A stretch of DNA of 64,000 bases from NCBI RefSeq assembly GCF_006717075.1, contig NZ_VFQC01000001.1, positions 992,001 to 1,056,000 on the forward strand, read 5' to 3'. Position 1 is the first letter of the stretch. Every line of letters starts with the position of its first letter. Shown here in pieces: positions 19,958 through 63,726 of the stretch. Source of the DNA: Haloactinospora alba. Lineage in GTDB: Bacteria > Actinomycetota > Actinomycetes > Streptosporangiales > Streptosporangiaceae. The position numbers and the translations under genes were made by a program. The notes under the pieces are model-generated. The model searched no databases and had not been told where the DNA came from. It worked only from the letters and a program-made list of their open reading frames with translations.

Positions 19958-20977
19958 ATGGGTCCACGACTGGCCGATCTCGCACAGCACGCGGGTGTGA
20001 GCGAAGCGACGGTTTCCCGGGTGCTCAACGACAAGCCCGGTGTGGGGATGGAAACGCGCAAAGCCGTGTTGACCGCCCTGGACATGCTTGGCTACGAGCG
20101 CCCCGCACGGTTACGCAAACGTTCCGCCGGACTCGTCGGAATGGTCGTTCCCGAACTGGAGAACCCCGTCTTCCCGATGTTCGCCCAAGCCGCCGAGAGC
20201 GCGTTGGCACGGCACGGTTATACCCCCGTGCTCTGCACCCAGACCCCCGGCGGTGTCGTCGAGGACGAGTACGTCGAGCTGCTGCTGGAACGCAACGTAT
20301 CCGGGATCATCTTCGTATCCGGGCTCCACGCCGACACGAACGCCGACCACGACCGCTATCGGAGACTGGCGGCGCAGGGACTGCCGATCGTCCTGGTCAA
20401 CGGCTACAGCGACGATGTTCCGGCGGTGTTCATATCGTGCGACGACCGGCAGGCGGGAGAACTGGCGGTCAACCACCTCGCCGCACTGGGCCATACCCGC
20501 ATCGGTTTCACAAGCGGCCCGGAGCGTTACGTACCGGTACGCCGCAAGCTCGCCGGATACCACGCGGCCATGGAACGCAACGGCCTGTCCGACACGGACA
20601 TGGTGGAACTGTCCCTGTTCGGGGTAGAGGGCGGACAGGCGGCGACCGCCCGGCTACTGGAGCGGGGCGCCACCGCGATGGTGTGCGGATCCGACATGAT
20701 GGCGCTGGGTGCGATCCGTGCCGCACGCCAGCGCGGGATGTCCGTTCCGGAGGACTTCTCGGCGGTTGGCTATGACGACTCCCAGCTCGTGGCGTTCACG
20801 GACCCGCCGCTGACCACTGTCCGCCAACCGGTGCAGTCGATGGCGCTGGCGGCCGTCAGCGCGCTGTGTGACGGGATCGACGGCCACGCCACCAACAGCG
20901 CCCGCGCGGAGTACCTCTTCGACCCGGAACTGGTGGTGCGCGGTTCCACCGGAGCGGTCCCGGAGGAGGCCGCCTAG
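19958..20977 (+). CDS. LacI-family transcriptional regulator of alpha-glucosidase
   Basis: A 339-residue LacI/GalR repressor. The helix-turn-helix RLADLAQHAGVSEATVSRVL (residues 4-23) and hinge region are intact, followed by a periplasmic-binding-protein-like sugar domain (VGMVVPELENPVFP near 65, AVGYDDSQLVAFTDPPLTTV near 265). Divergent from a GH13 alpha-glucosidase with a perfect palindrome between them, so maltose/alpha-glucoside control is likely (MalR/AglR-like); the effector is inferred from context. It ends in a TAG that overlaps CTAG, directly followed by a MITE-like repeat. Confidence 0.92.
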   Translation: MGPRLADLAQHAGVSEATVSRVLNDKPGVGMETRKAVLTALDMLGYERPARLRKRSAGLVGMVVPELENPVFPMFAQAAESALARHGYTPVLCTQTPGGVVEDEYVELLLERNVSGIIFVSGLHADTNADHDRYRRLAAQGLPIVLVNGYSDDVPAVFISCDDRQAGELAVNHLAALGHTRIGFTSGPERYVPVRRKLAGYHAAMERNGLSDTDMVELSLFGVEGGQAATARLLERGATAMVCGSDMMALGAIRAARQRGMSVPEDFSAVGYDDSQLVAFTDPPLTTVRQPVQSMALAAVSALCDGIDGHATNSARAEYLFDPELVVRGSTGAVPEEAA

Positions 20978-21134
20978 AGCCTGTTCCCAGACGCTGTTCG
21001 CCGCGAGCGGCGTCTCCGGTGCCGCCCGGCACGGCCGGTCAGGGAGGCGGAGCGGACCCTCCGCCGCCCGGCGGGAACGCCGCCGGGCGGGGTGCCGGGG
21101 CGGCGCGCAGCAGGACAAGCGTCCGAAAACAGGA
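20978..21134 (+). repeat. MITE-like element, copy 1
   Basis: About 157 bp between two CTAG tetramers (20974-20977, part of the lacI stop, and 21135-21138). The ends are imperfect inverted repeats: the left begins GCCTGTTCCCAGACGC, the right read inward begins TCCTGTTTTCGGACGC. It shares CTGTTCG..CGAGCGG..TCCGGTGCCGC and GGCGGAGCGGACCCTCCG with copies at 39.1 and 62.8 kb. No coding capacity. CTAG at both ends suggests a 4-bp target duplication, as IS5-family elements can make. Confidence 0.7.
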
Positions 21135-21193
21135 CTAGCCGGGACGGAAGAATTCGTTTCCCGCCCGGGACTGCGGCACCGTACCCTTGCGCC

Positions 21194-21847
21194 ATGGCTC
21201 CACCAAGCGTCGTGCGGTCGGTGAACGTTGGCCGGGTGGCCGAGGCGGCCTGGGCGGGACGGCTGAAACGCACCGCTATCGACAAGACCCCCGTGACAGG
21301 CCGCGTCGGTGTGTATGAGGAGGGAGTCGCGGGTGACTCCCAGGCCGACCTCGAGCACCACGGCGGACGGGACCAGGCGGTCTACGCCTATCCCCGCGAG
21401 GGGCTCGACCGGTGGGAGGAGCGGCTCGGTCGCAGGCTCGGGGACGGTGCCTTCGGAGAGAACCTCACCACAGCCGGCCTCGACGTCAACGCTGCTCTGA
21501 TCGGTGAGCGGTGGCGCGTCGGCACCGTTCTGCTGGAGGCCACACTCCCTCGGACACCGTGCGGTGTCTTCCAGGCATGGCTGGCGGAAGCGGGATGGAC
21601 CAAACGGTTCACCGAGGAGGGACGGACGGGTGTCTACCTGCGGGTGCTCGAGGAGGGGAGCCTCGCCGCCGGGGACGGGGTCACCGTGGTACACCGTCCC
21701 GCGCACGGGATAACCGTGATGGCGGCCTTCCGCGCCTACTACGAGCGCGACCTCGACCTGCTGCGCCGCGTGCTGCGGATCCCCGGCCGCTCGCCCTCCT
21801 GGGAACGCACGGCCGCCCAGCTGGAGAGACAGCTCTCGAACGGCTGA
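21194..21847 (+). CDS. MOSC-domain protein (YiiM-like)
   Basis: A 217-residue MOSC-domain protein. The family shares its fold with molybdenum-cofactor sulfurase C-termini; E. coli YiiM relatives reduce N-hydroxylated compounds. Core motifs: GDSQADLEHHGGRDQAVYAY near residue 50, FGENLTTAGLDV near 90, and PRTPCGVFQAW near 125 carrying the single conserved Cys that would bind the cofactor. ATG 21194 starts just before the conserved region; the longer open frame upstream runs through the repeat element. hemW follows after 36 bp on the same strand. Substrate unknown. Confidence 0.85.
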   Translation: MAPPSVVRSVNVGRVAEAAWAGRLKRTAIDKTPVTGRVGVYEEGVAGDSQADLEHHGGRDQAVYAYPREGLDRWEERLGRRLGDGAFGENLTTAGLDVNAALIGERWRVGTVLLEATLPRTPCGVFQAWLAEAGWTKRFTEEGRTGVYLRVLEEGSLAAGDGVTVVHRPAHGITVMAAFRAYYERDLDLLRRVLRIPGRSPSWERTAAQLERQLSNG

Positions 21848-37832: not shown

Positions 37833-39131
37833 GTGAGTGCGCAGGACTCTGCAGGCAACAGCGCCGATGCGGCCGGAATCGGCCTCGCCGGATTGAACGA
37901 GGCCCTTGATACGCGACTCGCTGACGCCGACGCACGACTGCTGGAACAGTTCCCTGGGGAACGCGGGAAGCGTCAGCCGATCCACACTGTCTATGTTCCC
38001 GCTGACCGGATCCGTCCCGGTATCGCGACCGAGTGGGGCAAACAGGCGGACCAGGCCCTGCGGGAGCACGCCCCGGACGCGGGGACGCTGGCCGCTGCCA
38101 CCGGGATGAGTGCGGAGATGGTCGCCGAGTGCCTGCCGCGGGTGCAGGAGAAACTGCGCACCGAGCCGATCGAGGACCTGCGGATCGACCTGGAGGACGG
38201 CTACGGCACCCGACCCGACTCGGAGGAGGACCGGCACCTCACCGAAGCGGCCACCGCACTGTGCGCCGACCTGCGAAGCGCGGTGGCCCCTCCGTTCTTC
38301 GGTATCCGGATGAAGGGGATGGAGGCTGCGGGACGACACCGCGGGACACGCAGCCTGACCATGTTCCTGAACACCCTGTTGGAGGAACTGGGCGCTCTTC
38401 CCGAGGGCTTCGTCTTCACCCTCCCCAAGATCACCTCGGTCGACCAGGTGGAGGCGACGGTCTGGTTGGCGGAGCAGCTGGAGAAACGGTTGTCCCTGCC
38501 GAGCGGGAGCCTCCGGTTCGAGCTGCAGATCGAGACCCCGCAGTCCGTCATCGCTCCCGACGGCACCGCGACCGTCGCCCGGATGGTGCACGCCGGACAG
38601 GGGCGGGTAACCGCCCTGCACTACGGAACGTACGACTACAGCGCGGCGTGCGGAGTGACGGCAGGGTTCCAGAGCATGGCCCATCCGGTCGCCGACCACG
38701 CCAAGGCCGTCATGCAGGTCGCGGTCGCCGGGACCGGAGTGTGGCTGTCCGACGGCTCCACCAACGTGCTGCCGGTCGGGACCACCGAGGACGTGCACGA
38801 GGCATGGCACCTGCACTCCGGGCTCGTCCGCAGGTCCCTGGAACGCGCGTACTACCAGGGATGGGACATGCACCCCCACCACCTGCCCACCAGGTACCTG
38901 GCGACCTACGCGTTCTACCGGGAGGCGTTCCCCTCGGCAGCGGAACGGTTGGCCGCCTACCTCACCGCCGACTCGGGCGGTGTCCTCGACGAGCCGGCGA
39001 CCGCTCAGGCCCTGGCCTCCACCCTTGTCCGTGGCCTGCGCTGCGGCGCGCTCTCCGAGAGCGAGGTCAGTGACGCCACCGGAGCCGGATCCGAGGTGCT
39101 GGTCGGTTTCGCCAACCGGCGGGTGGGCTAG
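37833..39131 (+). CDS. HpcH/HpaI aldolase-like protein (DUF6986 type) of the allantoin locus
   Basis: A 432-residue protein with the citrate-lyase-beta/HpcH aldolase fold: RIDLEDGYGTRP near residue 122 (Asp-Glu-Asp signature), FFGIRMKGME near 155, FELQIETPQSV near 230 carrying the metal-binding Glu, and HYGTYDYSAACGV near 265 carrying the metal-binding Asp. Active-site residues look intact. It is longer than simple HpcH aldolases. Such proteins recur beside allantoin genes in actinobacteria, so glyoxylate or a ureido-acid is a plausible substrate, but the reaction is not known to me. GTG 37833 has GGAAGGGG upstream. The TAG stop is followed at once by a MITE-like element. Confidence 0.75.
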   Translation: MSAQDSAGNSADAAGIGLAGLNEALDTRLADADARLLEQFPGERGKRQPIHTVYVPADRIRPGIATEWGKQADQALREHAPDAGTLAAATGMSAEMVAECLPRVQEKLRTEPIEDLRIDLEDGYGTRPDSEEDRHLTEAATALCADLRSAVAPPFFGIRMKGMEAAGRHRGTRSLTMFLNTLLEELGALPEGFVFTLPKITSVDQVEATVWLAEQLEKRLSLPSGSLRFELQIETPQSVIAPDGTATVARMVHAGQGRVTALHYGTYDYSAACGVTAGFQSMAHPVADHAKAVMQVAVAGTGVWLSDGSTNVLPVGTTEDVHEAWHLHSGLVRRSLERAYYQGWDMHPHHLPTRYLATYAFYREAFPSAAERLAAYLTADSGGVLDEPATAQALASTLVRGLRCGALSESEVSDATGAGSEVLVGFANRRVG

Positions 39132-39292
39132 GGCCTGTTCGGCGAACGCCTGTCCTCCCGTGCCTGGCTCCGGTGCCGCGCCGGAGGCGGTTCCCTCAGT
39201 CGTCCGGGAGCCGCTCCGCCGTGTTCCCCGGCAGCCCCGGCGGGGTACCGGAGCCGCGGCTCGTGACGAACAGCGCCTCTCGAACGGGTCCG
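39132..39292 (-). repeat. MITE-like element, copy 2 (reverse orientation)
   Basis: About 161 bp starting directly after the HpcH-like stop CTAG. One end is GGGCCTGTTCGGCGAACGCC. The other, read inward on the minus strand, runs GACCCGTTCGAGAGGCGC then CTGTTCGTCACGAGCCGCGG, matching copies 1 and 4. The internal GGCGGAGCGG also matches. It forms most of the gap before allB. Confidence 0.65.
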
Positions 39293-57164: not shown

Positions 57165-60100
57165 GTGCCGGAACTTAGCGTCATCGTCGTATTCGACGTC
57201 ACCGAACCCCACCTGTCCCCGTGCCTGGCCTCACTCACCGGGCAGACCGCAGCATCCGACGGCGATCTCGAGGTCGTCCTCGCTCCCGTGCGGCACAGTC
57301 CGGCTCCCGAGGGGGAACACGGAACCGTGGTCCGCGCGGTGGACGGCGAGGACGGGACAGAGCTCGCGGACGCCGAGGTGCCCGGCGGGGATGAGGAGGC
57401 CGGAACCGGTACCGCGCCCGTGGAGGAGGCGGATCCGGCCGAGGGGGAGGAACCTGCCGAGTCCGGGGAGAGCGAGGCCGCCGACACCCTGCGTGAGGAG
57501 GGGGCGGCGGCCGCCCGCGCCTTTGCGGCCAACCCGCCCCGGGGCATTGAGGCCACGATGGTGGGACACAGCTCCGCTGGGCGCGCGGAGGCCCGTAGGA
57601 TCGGTGCCGAAGCCGCGAGCGGCGAGTACCTGATGTTCCTGGACGGGGCGGACCGGCTCACCAGCTATGCGCTCGCCTACCTCCTGGAGACTCTGAAGGC
57701 CTCCGGGGCGGACGTGGCCACGGGCAACGTCTACCGGTTCAACGAGCTCGGCACGCGCCCCTCCCGGGCGCACCAGAAACCCTGCGGCAGACAGCGTACG
57801 TGCACGAACGTGCGCTCCGTTCCCTCGCTGCTCGGCGACCGGCTGTACGGCAACAAACTGTGGCGGCGTTCCTTCTGGGAGAACCTGCCACGCACCGACG
57901 TCGCCGACCCCGACACCGATCTCGCCGTTGTCCGTGCGCTCTTCGCCGCCACGGCGGTGGACGTGCTTCCAGCACCGGTCCATCTGTGCCGGGACAGGGA
58001 GAGGACCGACGACTACCGTGACGTCGCGACCCTGACCCGGCGCATCGCGGCTGTCGCCGAGCTGTCGTCGGCTCTTCCGGAAAGCGACAGGAACGTGTGG
58101 GACCACCGTGCGCTCTGCCACGACGTGTGCTCCGTGCTCCTGCGGATGGACGACGCCGACCAGCAGGCCCGGGAGCGGTTCTACGAACTGGTCGGCAACC
58201 AGTATCTGGGGAGGGTCGACCGCCACGTGCTGGACAGGCTCTCACCGTTGCACAGGCTGAACTACTACCTGGTGCGGCAGCGTCAGGATGCGCGGCTGTT
58301 GGAACTGCTCACCTTCCAGAAGAGCGTGGAGCTCAAGAAAGCCCCCCTCGTCCGTCGGGGCGTGCACTACTACATCAAGTACCCCTTTTTCGAGGACAAG
58401 GATTCCGGAATCCCGCGGGAGGTGTACCGGGTCGGCCCCGACCTGAAGGTGCGGCAGAAGACGGAGAACGTGGAATGGCGGGGCGGACAGCTCGTCGTCA
58501 GCGGACGGGTGGGCATCGCGCACCTGCGCGCGCGGCGCCGCTGGCAGCAACAGCTCGTGGCTTTCGCCGTCAATCCCGCGACAGGGCGGCGCGTTTCCGT
58601 CCCCGTCCGGATGCGACGCGCGGCGGAGTACCGGTTGGCGGACCGCCCGGACGCCGCCCGCCATGACTACGGGGGTTTCGAGGTCACCGTGAACCCGGAG
58701 AAACTCCGGGTGTCAGGCAGCTGGCAGGCCGCTGAGTGGCAGCTCGAGCTGGTCGTGATCAACCGGGGGATCGTACGCCGCCGGACCATTGCCAACCCTG
58801 TGTCAGGACAGCCGCAACGTCCTCCGTACCAGCGGATAGCGGGAGACGTGTGGATACGTCCCACCTGGAACCAGGACGGGAAACTGAGTATCGACGTCGA
58901 CCCCCTTCGCGCGCGGGTGATCGAGTGCCGCCGCGAGAACCGCGACGGCGGAGCCGGGTTGCGGATCGCCGGGGAGCTCGTCGCGCCACCGGCCGCGCAC
59001 GCACGGGAGCTGCGGCTTACCCGGCTTCCGGGTACCGCTGTGCTGCACTACCCGTTGCGGTGCACCGGGGGACGCTTCGAGGCCAGCGTTCCCGTCTCCG
59101 AGGTGGTGGAACGGGCGGTGGCCGAAGGGGAGGGGCAGCTGAGCCAGGAACAGTGGCGAGTCGAGCTGGTGACGCACGAGGGGAACACGGTCCCGCTGAT
59201 CCTGCCGGACGCGCTGGAGACCGCGGTGTATCCCGCCGATGGCAACCAACAGGAGGTCGCCGTCCAGCGCACCAGCACCGGCCACCTGCAGCTGCGTGCC
59301 GGCTGGGCCCATCCGGTGCTCCACGAGGCTCGCTGGTCCGGCGATGAACTGGAACTGGTCGGAAGTTACACGGCCGCCTCCGAGCTCGAGCTGGTGTTCG
59401 CCGCGCGGGGGCGCGAGGAGGAGCACCTCCTTACGCTGCACCGGGACGGTGGGACGTTCCGGGCCCGTTTCTCCCCCTCCCGGATCCCCACACTCTCCGG
59501 GACGCTCCCGTTGTCCGCAGGCAGCTACCAGCTGTGGGCGCGCGTGCGGGCAGCGGACGGGAACACCAGCGGCGTCCGGGTCGAGATCTCTCCGGACTCG
59601 GTGCGGGAGCTGCCGGTGTCGTTGGAGAAACCGGAACGTTCCTACACGTTCGCGGACGCGGGATTCGACACCCCGATCCTCAGGGTCGGGAGCGACCTGT
59701 TTCCGGAGGAGCGCGGTTCGTTCGCGCAACGGCAGCTGCGGGAGAACGTGTATCCCGTGTTGCGGACGCAGGAGCTGCGCGAGGAGGTCTTCTTCGACAG
59801 TTTCACCGGAAGGCAGTTCTCCGACAGTCCGCACAGCATCTACACGGCCCTGCGGTCGCGGGGTGGGAGCTGGGCCGACTACCCGATGTCCTGGCTGGTC
59901 TCCGACGGTCAGGTGTCCCTGCCCGACGACGTCCGGCAGGTGCGCTACCACGGGCGGGAGTTCTACGAGTCCCTGGCCCGCTCACGGTACATCGTCACCA
60001 ACTCCCGCCAGCCCGCGTGGTTCGACCGGCGCAGTGACCAGGTGGTGGTCCAGACCTGGCACGGTTCGATGCTCAAGCGGATCGGCTTCGACATCGAGAA

Positions 60101-60869
60101 CATCCGTGGAAAGTCGCGCGACTACCACGAGAAGCTGTCATGGGAGACGCAGCAGTGGGACTACCTCGTTTCCCCCAGCCCGTGGGCGACACCGATCCTG
60201 CGCCGGGCGTTCCGCTTCGACGGGGAGATACTGGAGACGGGCTACCCGCGCAACGACATCTTCTTCTCCCCCGACCGGGACGCGATAGCCGAACGCACCC
60301 GTCAGCGTCTCGGCCTGCCACCGGACAAGAAGGTGGTGCTGTACGCGCCGACATGGCGGGACGACAAGTACTACACCAGGGGCAAACACAAGCTCGACCT
60401 GCACCTGGACCTGTACCGGATGTACGAGAAGCTGGGCGAGGACCACGTGCTGCTCGTCCGCCGGCACCCTCGGGTGGTGGACAGCGTTCCGACCGTCGGT
60501 ACGAACTTCGTCTACGACGTGTCGCTGTACCCGGAGATCATGGAGCTATTCCTGGTCACCGACGTGCTGGTCACCGACTACTCGTCGATGATGTTCGACT
60601 TCGCCAACACCGGTCGGCCCATGCTCTTCTTCACCTACGACATCGAGAGTTACCGGGACAGCCTTCGCGGTTTCTACTTCGACTTCGAGGAGACCGCCCC
60701 CGGGCCGCTCCTGAAGAGGTCGGACGACGTGATAGACGCCCTGCTGAACATCGGTGAGGTGTCGGACCGGTACGGCTCCGCCTACAGGAGGTTCACCGAC
60801 CAGTTCTGCCCACTGGATGACGGGAACGCGGCCGCACGTGTCGTGGACCGGGTGTTCGGCCGTGGCTAG
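57165..60869 (+). CDS. Large TagF-like CDP-glycerol/polyol-phosphate transferase with GT2-like N-terminus
   Basis: A 1,234-residue peripheral membrane polymerase for teichoic-acid-type wall polymers. Residues 1-45 and 131-330 form a GT2-like domain (PELSVIVVFDVTEPHLSPCL; GEYLMFLDGADRL), interrupted by an acidic low-complexity stretch (about 59-115, Glu/Asp/Ala-rich). A beta-rich middle follows, then a CDP-glycerol transferase domain (about 830-1230) with QTWHGSMLKRIGFD, ETGYPRNDIFF, VLYAPTWRDD, VRRHPRV and VTDYSSMMFDFANT. The DGAD in place of DxD makes the N-terminal transferase questionable. Single gene, GTG start; the TAG stop touches a repeat remnant. Polymer type is unknown. Confidence 0.85.
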   Translation: MPELSVIVVFDVTEPHLSPCLASLTGQTAASDGDLEVVLAPVRHSPAPEGEHGTVVRAVDGEDGTELADAEVPGGDEEAGTGTAPVEEADPAEGEEPAESGESEAADTLREEGAAAARAFAANPPRGIEATMVGHSSAGRAEARRIGAEAASGEYLMFLDGADRLTSYALAYLLETLKASGADVATGNVYRFNELGTRPSRAHQKPCGRQRTCTNVRSVPSLLGDRLYGNKLWRRSFWENLPRTDVADPDTDLAVVRALFAATAVDVLPAPVHLCRDRERTDDYRDVATLTRRIAAVAELSSALPESDRNVWDHRALCHDVCSVLLRMDDADQQARERFYELVGNQYLGRVDRHVLDRLSPLHRLNYYLVRQRQDARLLELLTFQKSVELKKAPLVRRGVHYYIKYPFFEDKDSGIPREVYRVGPDLKVRQKTENVEWRGGQLVVSGRVGIAHLRARRRWQQQLVAFAVNPATGRRVSVPVRMRRAAEYRLADRPDAARHDYGGFEVTVNPEKLRVSGSWQAAEWQLELVVINRGIVRRRTIANPVSGQPQRPPYQRIAGDVWIRPTWNQDGKLSIDVDPLRARVIECRRENRDGGAGLRIAGELVAPPAAHARELRLTRLPGTAVLHYPLRCTGGRFEASVPVSEVVERAVAEGEGQLSQEQWRVELVTHEGNTVPLILPDALETAVYPADGNQQEVAVQRTSTGHLQLRAGWAHPVLHEARWSGDELELVGSYTAASELELVFAARGREEEHLLTLHRDGGTFRARFSPSRIPTLSGTLPLSAGSYQLWARVRAADGNTSGVRVEISPDSVRELPVSLEKPERSYTFADAGFDTPILRVGSDLFPEERGSFAQRQLRENVYPVLRTQELREEVFFDSFTGRQFSDSPHSIYTALRSRGGSWADYPMSWLVSDGQVSLPDDVRQVRYHGREFYESLARSRYIVTNSRQPAWFDRRSDQVVVQTWHGSMLKRIGFDIENIRGKSRDYHEKLSWETQQWDYLVSPSPWATPILRRAFRFDGEILETGYPRNDIFFSPDRDAIAERTRQRLGLPPDKKVVLYAPTWRDDKYYTRGKHKLDLHLDLYRMYEKLGEDHVLLVRRHPRVVDSVPTVGTNFVYDVSLYPEIMELFLVTDVLVTDYSSMMFDFANTGRPMLFFTYDIESYRDSLRGFYFDFEETAPGPLLKRSDDVIDALLNIGEVSDRYGSAYRRFTDQFCPLDDGNAAARVVDRVFGRG

Positions 60870-60922
60870 GCTCCGTTCGGCGGACGACGCGCAGTAGGAC
60901 GAACGTCCAGCAAACAGAGTCC
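60870..60922 (+). repeat. MITE-like element, copy 3 (ends only)
   Basis: 53 bp directly after the TagF-like TAG stop (CTAG). The left end GGCTCCGTTCGGCGGACG resembles the ends of copies 1-2, and CGCGCAGTAGGACGAACGTCC matches the right end of copy 1 (CGCGCAGCAGGACAAGCGTCC). The interior is missing, as in a deletion derivative. Confidence 0.55.
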
Positions 60923-62836: not shown

Positions 62837-63012
62837 GGGTCCTGTTCGGGGAGACTGTTCGTGACGAGCGGTGCGTCCGGTGCCGCGCTGGGCAGGGCCG
62901 GGGGTCGGGGCGGAGCGGATCTTCCGTCGGCGTCGGGACGCGCAGCGGCGCCGGAGCCACCCCTGCGTGCCCGGCACCGGTGCGGACCTGCTGGGCGCAG
63001 CTGCCAGCGCAC
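62837..63012 (+). repeat. MITE-like element, copy 4
   Basis: About 176 bp from GGGTCCTGTTCGGGG to the CTAG at 63013-63016 that forms the hlyIII stop codon (minus strand). CTGTTCGTGACGAGCGG, TCCGGTGCCGCG and GGCGGAGCGGATCTTCCG match copy 1. Its right end is the more diverged one. Confidence 0.6.
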
Positions 63013-63726
63013 CTAGTTCGCGGTGTACACCACGAAGGAGACCGCGATGTAGTGGCAGACGTACGCCGCGATCGTGAGGGAATGGAAGATTTCGTGGAAC
63101 CCGAACCAGCGCGGTGCGGGGTTGGGCCGACGTAGCCCGTAGACGACGGCGCCTGCGCTGTACAGCAGCCCGCCAGCCGCGACCAGGATCCAGGTGGCCG
63201 GATGCGTCCCGCTGACGAGCTGGGGGACGAACAACACCGCGACCCAGCCGAGGGCGAGGTAGAGGGCGGTGGACAACCACCGCGGTGCGTTCAGCCACAG
63301 TATCTTGAACGCCACTCCCAGAACGGCCGCTGTCCAGATGAGGGCCATCATGGCCGGACGCAGGGTGCCGTCCAGGATGAGCAGCACGAACGGCGTGTAG
63401 GTTCCGGCGATGATGAGGTAGATGTTGGCGTGGTCCATGCGTCGGAGCACGGCCATGCCCCGCTTGGACCAGCGTCCCACGTGGTAGGTGGCCGAGGTGC
63501 TGAACAGCAGTACGGAGCTGACCGCGTATACCGCGCTGGCGATCCGGGCGGGCGCTGACGGAGCGAGCGTGACGAGGACGATGCCGGCTGCCAGGGCGAG
63601 GGGAGCGGTGCCCAGGTGCAGCCACCCGCGCAGGCGGGGTTTCACGGCATGGAGCAGACCGGTGGTCCTTCCTGCTGGTGCGTGCTGCGCGGCGGTGCGT
63701 GTCTCACCGGAGTGCTGAACAGACAC
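63013..63726 (-). CDS. HlyIII/PAQR-family membrane protein
   Basis: A 237-residue seven-helix membrane protein of the hemolysin III/adiponectin-receptor-like family. Family residues: ATYHVG near residue 80 (ending the S..ATYH motif), MDHANIYLIIAGTYTPF near 97-113, and the metal-binding region FHEIFHSLTIAAYVCHYIAV near 210. The three His and one Asp fit the zinc site of PAQR hydrolases. Function in bacteria is debated (membrane lipid homeostasis). The TAG stop lies in a CTAG next to a MITE-like copy. An 18-bp operator-like palindrome lies upstream. Confidence 0.9.
   Translation of the reverse strand: MSVQHSGETRTAAQHAPAGRTTGLLHAVKPRLRGWLHLGTAPLALAAGIVLVTLAPSAPARIASAVYAVSSVLLFSTSATYHVGRWSKRGMAVLRRMDHANIYLIIAGTYTPFVLLILDGTLRPAMMALIWTAAVLGVAFKILWLNAPRWLSTALYLALGWVAVLFVPQLVSGTHPATWILVAAGGLLYSAGAVVYGLRRPNPAPRWFGFHEIFHSLTIAAYVCHYIAVSFVVYTAN

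Follow-up and report, generated by a model that had tools for sequence, protein, structure and literature searches.

A family of short, non-coding mobile elements is present in the genome of Haloactinospora alba (4.94 Mb in four contigs, with a GC content of 69% in the parts examined), and its members abut stop codons far more often than expected. This association is genuine across the genome, and it is not universal. The elements are lineage-restricted MITEs of the IS5 type; elements of this kind are already known while the sequence family is new, and the notable part is the quantified association with stop codons together with an element end that restores the stop. With a probability of about 0.85, we consider the family to consist of non-autonomous IS5-family MITEs of ~159 bp which would be moved in trans, target TA, contribute a G that restores a stop codon, are lost when inserted into genes, and see the flanking TA decay where it is not part of a stop.

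The element family and its copies in the window

For the window, a stretch of 64,000 nucleotides, four related MITE-like, non-coding elements had been proposed. Both the family and the relationship of the four copies were borne out (Table 1). The consensus has 159 bp, is non-coding and has complementary ends (terminal inverted repeats; GTCCTGTTTTT(C)GGACGC on one side and GCGTCCGAAAAACAGGAC on the other). It folds onto itself nearly from end to end, so that a giant hairpin is formed, with an MFE which averages about -100 kcal/mol across the copies (-102.9 kcal/mol with a z of -3.8 for copy 1; -105.1 with a z of -5.5 for copy 2). When the genome was searched with the covariance profile R1 and the best 150 candidates were scored, about 110 copies were obtained at E<=0.01, which we split into 41 better-preserved and 69 diverged copies. 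About 40 of the genomic copies show 84-96% identity to copy 1 of the window. The training set of R1 included window copies 1, 2 and 4; copy 3 was outside it. As is characteristic of MITEs, the elements are short, non-coding, multicopy, and bounded by terminal inverted repeats.

Table 1 Elements and neighbouring genes in the window.
Feature	Position	Strand	Remarks
LacI-type regulator gene	20021..20977	+	gene call; TAG stop 20975-20977
MITE copy 1, full length	20977..21135	+	155 bits to R1
Duplicated TA of copy 1	20975-20976 and 21136-21137		
DUF6986 gene ("HpcH-like" in the original prediction)	37833..39131	+	PF22484, 407/408 of profile; TAG stop 39129-39131, touches copy 2
MITE copy 2, from a diverged subfamily with GGCCTGTTCGGCG end	39131..39290	-	81 bits (profile match 39133-39290)
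TarF/TagF-like glycerophosphotransferase gene	57165..60869	+	PF04464, 366/367 of profile; TAG stop 60867-60869, touches copy 3
MITE copy 3, internally deleted, about 50 bp	60869..60920	+	22.1 bits, E 3.2e-5 (stretch searched alone)
MITE copy 4	62838..63002	+	53 bits; recognisable in the left two thirds, with a degraded right end
hlyIII/PAQR-family gene	63013..63645	-	TIGR01065, 203/204 of profile; TAG stop 63015-63013

Copy 1 has a CTAG on each side, as had been stated, and these share the terminal G and the terminal C of the element. The TAG stop of the LacI-type regulator, which has a Peripla_BP_3 domain over residues 150-310 of 318 (profile 1-167/167), consists of the target TA and the first G of copy 1. 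The intact end of copy 2 is at a CTAG (39128-39131) and its far end is without one. For copy 3, the match to R1 spans 60846-60919, and the last 36 nt show 81% identity to the right end of the family, which was equalled in 0 of 1000 shuffles; we therefore consider copy 3 an internally deleted derivative of the family. The PF04464 match of the adjacent TarF/TagF-like protein stops 3 residues short of the C-terminus. Copy 4 aligns poorly in its right half, and its right end in the model is 10 bp short of the nearest CTAG (63013-63016). The claim that all four copies touch a CTAG stop thus holds, according to the gene calls, for copies 1-3 and is not supported for copy 4.

In line with a mobile rather than ancestral origin, there are essentially no copies in 59 relatives (36 of them other genera of the same family); the MITE profile had matches in three of these, all of them weak (best E=2.5e-7). 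The exact pattern of the terminal inverted repeats had no match in a collection of species genomes from which records close to the H. alba genome were possibly left out. One relative from another genus has a lone weak match to the model (its contig C1:383407-383551, E=2.5e-7), which may represent an older relative of the family. Copies in adjacent or near pairs occur in H. alba at C1:2817866-2818185, C3:233689-233943 and C2:39027-40753, with the partners only a few bases apart in the first two cases.

Ends, target site and related IS5-family elements

For the 41 better-preserved copies, 79 ends are readable and have, from the outside to the inside, the order X-TA-G-G. The first G after the TA is kept in 77 of the 79 ends while X varies, and the T or the A is mutated in many. 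Many young copies have TA on both sides, and the outer base is unlike between the two sides. The constancy of the G next to a variable outer base indicates that the target is a TA which is duplicated upon insertion, so that the adjoining G would belong to the element, which would start with G on both sides. A duplication of the four bases CTAG was rejected on the same grounds, the fixed G and the differing outer base. The targets are mostly CTAG, and TTAG, CTAA and CTAC occur as well.

The genome contains two IS5-family elements of ~1 kb, IS_A and IS_B, in four and five nearly identical copies, respectively. Recent copies have 99.5-100% identity, CTAG-type flanks, and GGCCTGTTT / GGTCCTGTTT ends; a GG(T)CCTGTTT end is common to these elements and the MITE. 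The transposase of IS_B belongs to the IS5 family (NF033580, 245 bits with a cut-off of 110; domains DUF4096-DDE_Tnp_1). The two flanks of one recent IS_B copy are unlike, one being CTAG and one CTAA, in keeping with duplication of TA and not of CTAG. The left end of IS_B and the right end of the MITE have GTCCTGTTT and the 12-mer GCTTGTCCTGCT in common. The 12-mer arises in 1 of 20000 shuffles and the two blocks together in 0 of 1000; the spacing of the blocks differs by 3 nt between IS_B and the MITE. An intact autonomous element with exactly the ends of the MITE was searched for in the H. alba genome and none was found, and thus we infer the driver from the partial match of the ends. The expected IS5-type transposase with the same ends was hence recovered in part, with kindred ends and the 12-nt block in IS_B and not with exact ends.

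Homologues of IS_B occur across Actinobacteria, for instance in Prauserella, Amycolatopsis and Micromonospora, and share its TA-in-CTAG flanks. In a group of Micromonospora/Salinispora-type elements, which have an end starting with A, the junction reads CTA|A at both ends. We also considered an IS630 origin of the MITE, which was rejected: around each of the three DDE_3 loci, 5-6 kb were scanned and no pair of MITE-type ends that flanks a transposase was found.

Two of the five IS_B copies (C1:2606142-2607172 and C1:3563882-3564912) have an in-frame TAG in the transposase gene, which is open in the other three; in the first of the two, this TAG is located within a CTAG. At C1:541283-542364, a truncated MITE is joined end to end to an IS_B copy, with one CTAG in common, and this IS_B copy also abuts the stop codon of the upstream gene.

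Stop codons as landing sites

The tetramer CTAG is scarce, as had been assumed: the window has 13 of them while 86 are expected from shuffling, and a Markov estimate gives a 2.5-fold depletion for the genome. The original prediction had placed all four copies of the window at stop codons, and this does not extend to every copy of the genome. Genome-wide, stop codons are abutted by 24 of the 41 better-preserved and by 31 of the 69 diverged copies. No copy is inside a gene, and about half are away from gene ends, many of them between divergent genes. Nevertheless, insertion at stop codons is far more frequent than the background would suggest. Of the CTAGs in 564 kb which are not associated with a MITE, 99 are intergenic and 27 are in coding sequence, while 22 are stops, so that stops represent 22 of 121 non-coding CTAGs. 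The odds ratio for stop versus intergenic is 6.4 (p=2e-6) for the better-preserved and 3.7 (p=2e-4) for the diverged copies. The two element ends are used equally at stops (14 and 13 cases). Genes were called with a simple codon-usage caller trained on the same genome. The number of intact TAGs at stop ends is circular, as TAG defines these ends, and was not used as evidence.

The flanks of the better-preserved copies have a GC content of 0.73-0.74 while it is 0.61 for intergenic CTAGs. Upon matching for flank GC, the odds ratio is reduced to 3.0, with 24 observed and 17.7 expected cases (P=0.006). An approximately threefold excess thus persists. The proposal of an element adapted to insert at gene ends is stronger than needed. 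The excess might reflect a preference of the element or its transposase complex for the 3′ ends of genes beyond CTAG, with DNA supercoiling or transcription ends as conceivable causes, and it is already present in the copies nearest to the consensus (6 of 13). A bias which goes beyond both the sequence target and purifying selection would make TAG and TAA stops a dedicated safe harbour. We consider both forms of this idea rather improbable. The stop share of the better-preserved copies climbs with divergence, from 6/13 to 10/18 and 8/10, as retention predicts, and selective loss of other insertions would yield an identical pattern. IS copies abut stops in 3 of 9 cases in the H. alba genome; among the homologues elsewhere it is 8 of 40, which is about the CTAG background rate of H. 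alba. These IS rates are nearer to that background than to the 59% of the MITE, and thus target choice alone is insufficient to explain the residual excess. Much of the pattern is accounted for by the TA-in-CTAG target of this IS group, loss of insertions within genes, GC-rich flanks, and survival of the TA only in stop codons that are under selection.

The G of the element turns any in-frame TA into TAG, so many stops might have been made by insertion into a coding TA with truncation of the gene. Where the TA at the far end could be found, the junction codons were rebuilt, resulting in 13 TAG, 3 TAA, 2 TAC and 1 TAT. Sixteen codons are thus TAG or TAA; the TAC codons (2 of 19) would allow such an origin for a few stops. 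Flanking proteins with a family match have a mostly complete C-terminal domain, which in most of them ends a few residues before the stop. The DUF6986 gene next to copy 2 and a DUF3516 gene have orthologues in other genera which terminate at the same final residue and have no element. Some of these orthologues, among them one of the DUF6986 gene, end with a plain CTAG stop, which represents the empty site, the comparison being confined to the gene ends. The identical end residues and the empty CTAG stops argue that the stops are native and not truncations. The truncation reading is largely refuted already, and as a general explanation it is very unlikely. Occupied as well as empty sites, as expected for a MITE, are present at these two gene ends.

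Because of the strong hairpins and the location at gene ends, the copies might alternatively be seen as conserved terminators or structured RNAs, retained for their function rather than being mobile DNA, and the original prediction had included a supply of terminators. The region 20900-21250 has no stem followed by a T-run (intrinsic terminator) on either strand, so that copy 1 lacks the T-run after its stem, and the window has no Rfam match. A supply of terminators is hence not supported. Orthologous genes of relatives are without the element, about half of the copies are off gene ends, and terminal repeats with a duplicated TA are shared with IS5 elements. We regard this as the least probable of the readings. 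The best reading is that of a selfish element which can survive insertion at gene ends owing to its target and its terminal base.

Flanking TA, proposed mode of spread and known elements

At those ends of the 41 better-preserved copies which are not at a stop, the T is changed in 12 of 54 cases, predominantly to C, and the A in 17 of 54, predominantly to G, so that decayed flanks read CCAG, CTGG or CCGG. Changes from A/T to G/C affect 6.5% of the A/T positions inside the element; relative to these, the flanking TA has an odds ratio of 5.2 (p=7e-10). This quick decay helps to explain why old copies have a CTAG only on the stop side, where the TA is presumably held by selection. Decay that is specific for CTAG was considered and rejected: the TA is lost in 19 of 40 cases with C as outside base and in 3 of 12 with another base, which is not significant. 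Published explanations for CTAG avoidance are very-short-patch repair and targeting of CTAG by IS elements (PMC4687349, PMC5591236). A homologue of the Vsr-type very-short-patch repair endonuclease is encoded at C2:358429-358626 of the H. alba genome (E=1.6e-17).

According to the mechanism we propose, the MITE would be moved in trans by a DDE transposase of the IS5 type, similar to the one encoded by the ~1-kb elements of the genome. The element, with its GG...CC termini, would enter and duplicate a TA, mostly within CTAG. When a TAG or TAA stop is hit, its G would restore a TAG for the incoming gene, irrespective of orientation. Such insertions would not alter the protein and would be retained, and selection would probably act as a filter which removes insertions within genes. 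Elsewhere, the TA decays quickly in this CTAG-depleted genome, so that old copies would be left with the CTAG at the stop only.

IS5-family elements of the NF033580 type are like the MITE in their GG(N)CCTGTTT-like ends, the TA-of-CTAG target, and the TA on both sides; they differ in having ~1 kb, in carrying a transposase, and in abutting stops less often. MITEPsy1 from Pseudomonas syringae is a short non-coding IS5-related MITE which targets CTAG or YTAA. It differs from the present family in having 100 nt, 18-nt repeats, few copies and a reported duplication of 4 nt, and an association with stop codons is not mentioned in the parts of its description that we consulted (PMC3189936). The small TA-duplicating element RUP of pneumococcus is moved in trans by IS630-Spn1 (PMC2229807), and IS630 is reported to target TA with a preference for CTAG (Tenzen and Ohtsubo 1991, as cited in PMC2170065). 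The RUP/IS630 system and the present MITE are alike in their way of working, but the former depends on an IS630/Tc1-mariner transposase while the ends match the IS5 family here. A search of the open-access literature for MITEs at stop codons revealed no direct precedent.

The family offers a testable route to nearly harmless mobile DNA, as TA is common at TAG and TAA stops and rare in GC-rich genes, and as the first base of the element completes the stop codon. In addition, ~110 copies with graded divergence provide a natural record of the rate at which unselected CTAGs are lost in a CTAG-avoiding genome.

Two copies (C1:3680118-3680275 and C1:2537918-2538078) are located between convergent genes, and in both cases each end of the element is the TAG stop of one of the genes, on opposite strands.
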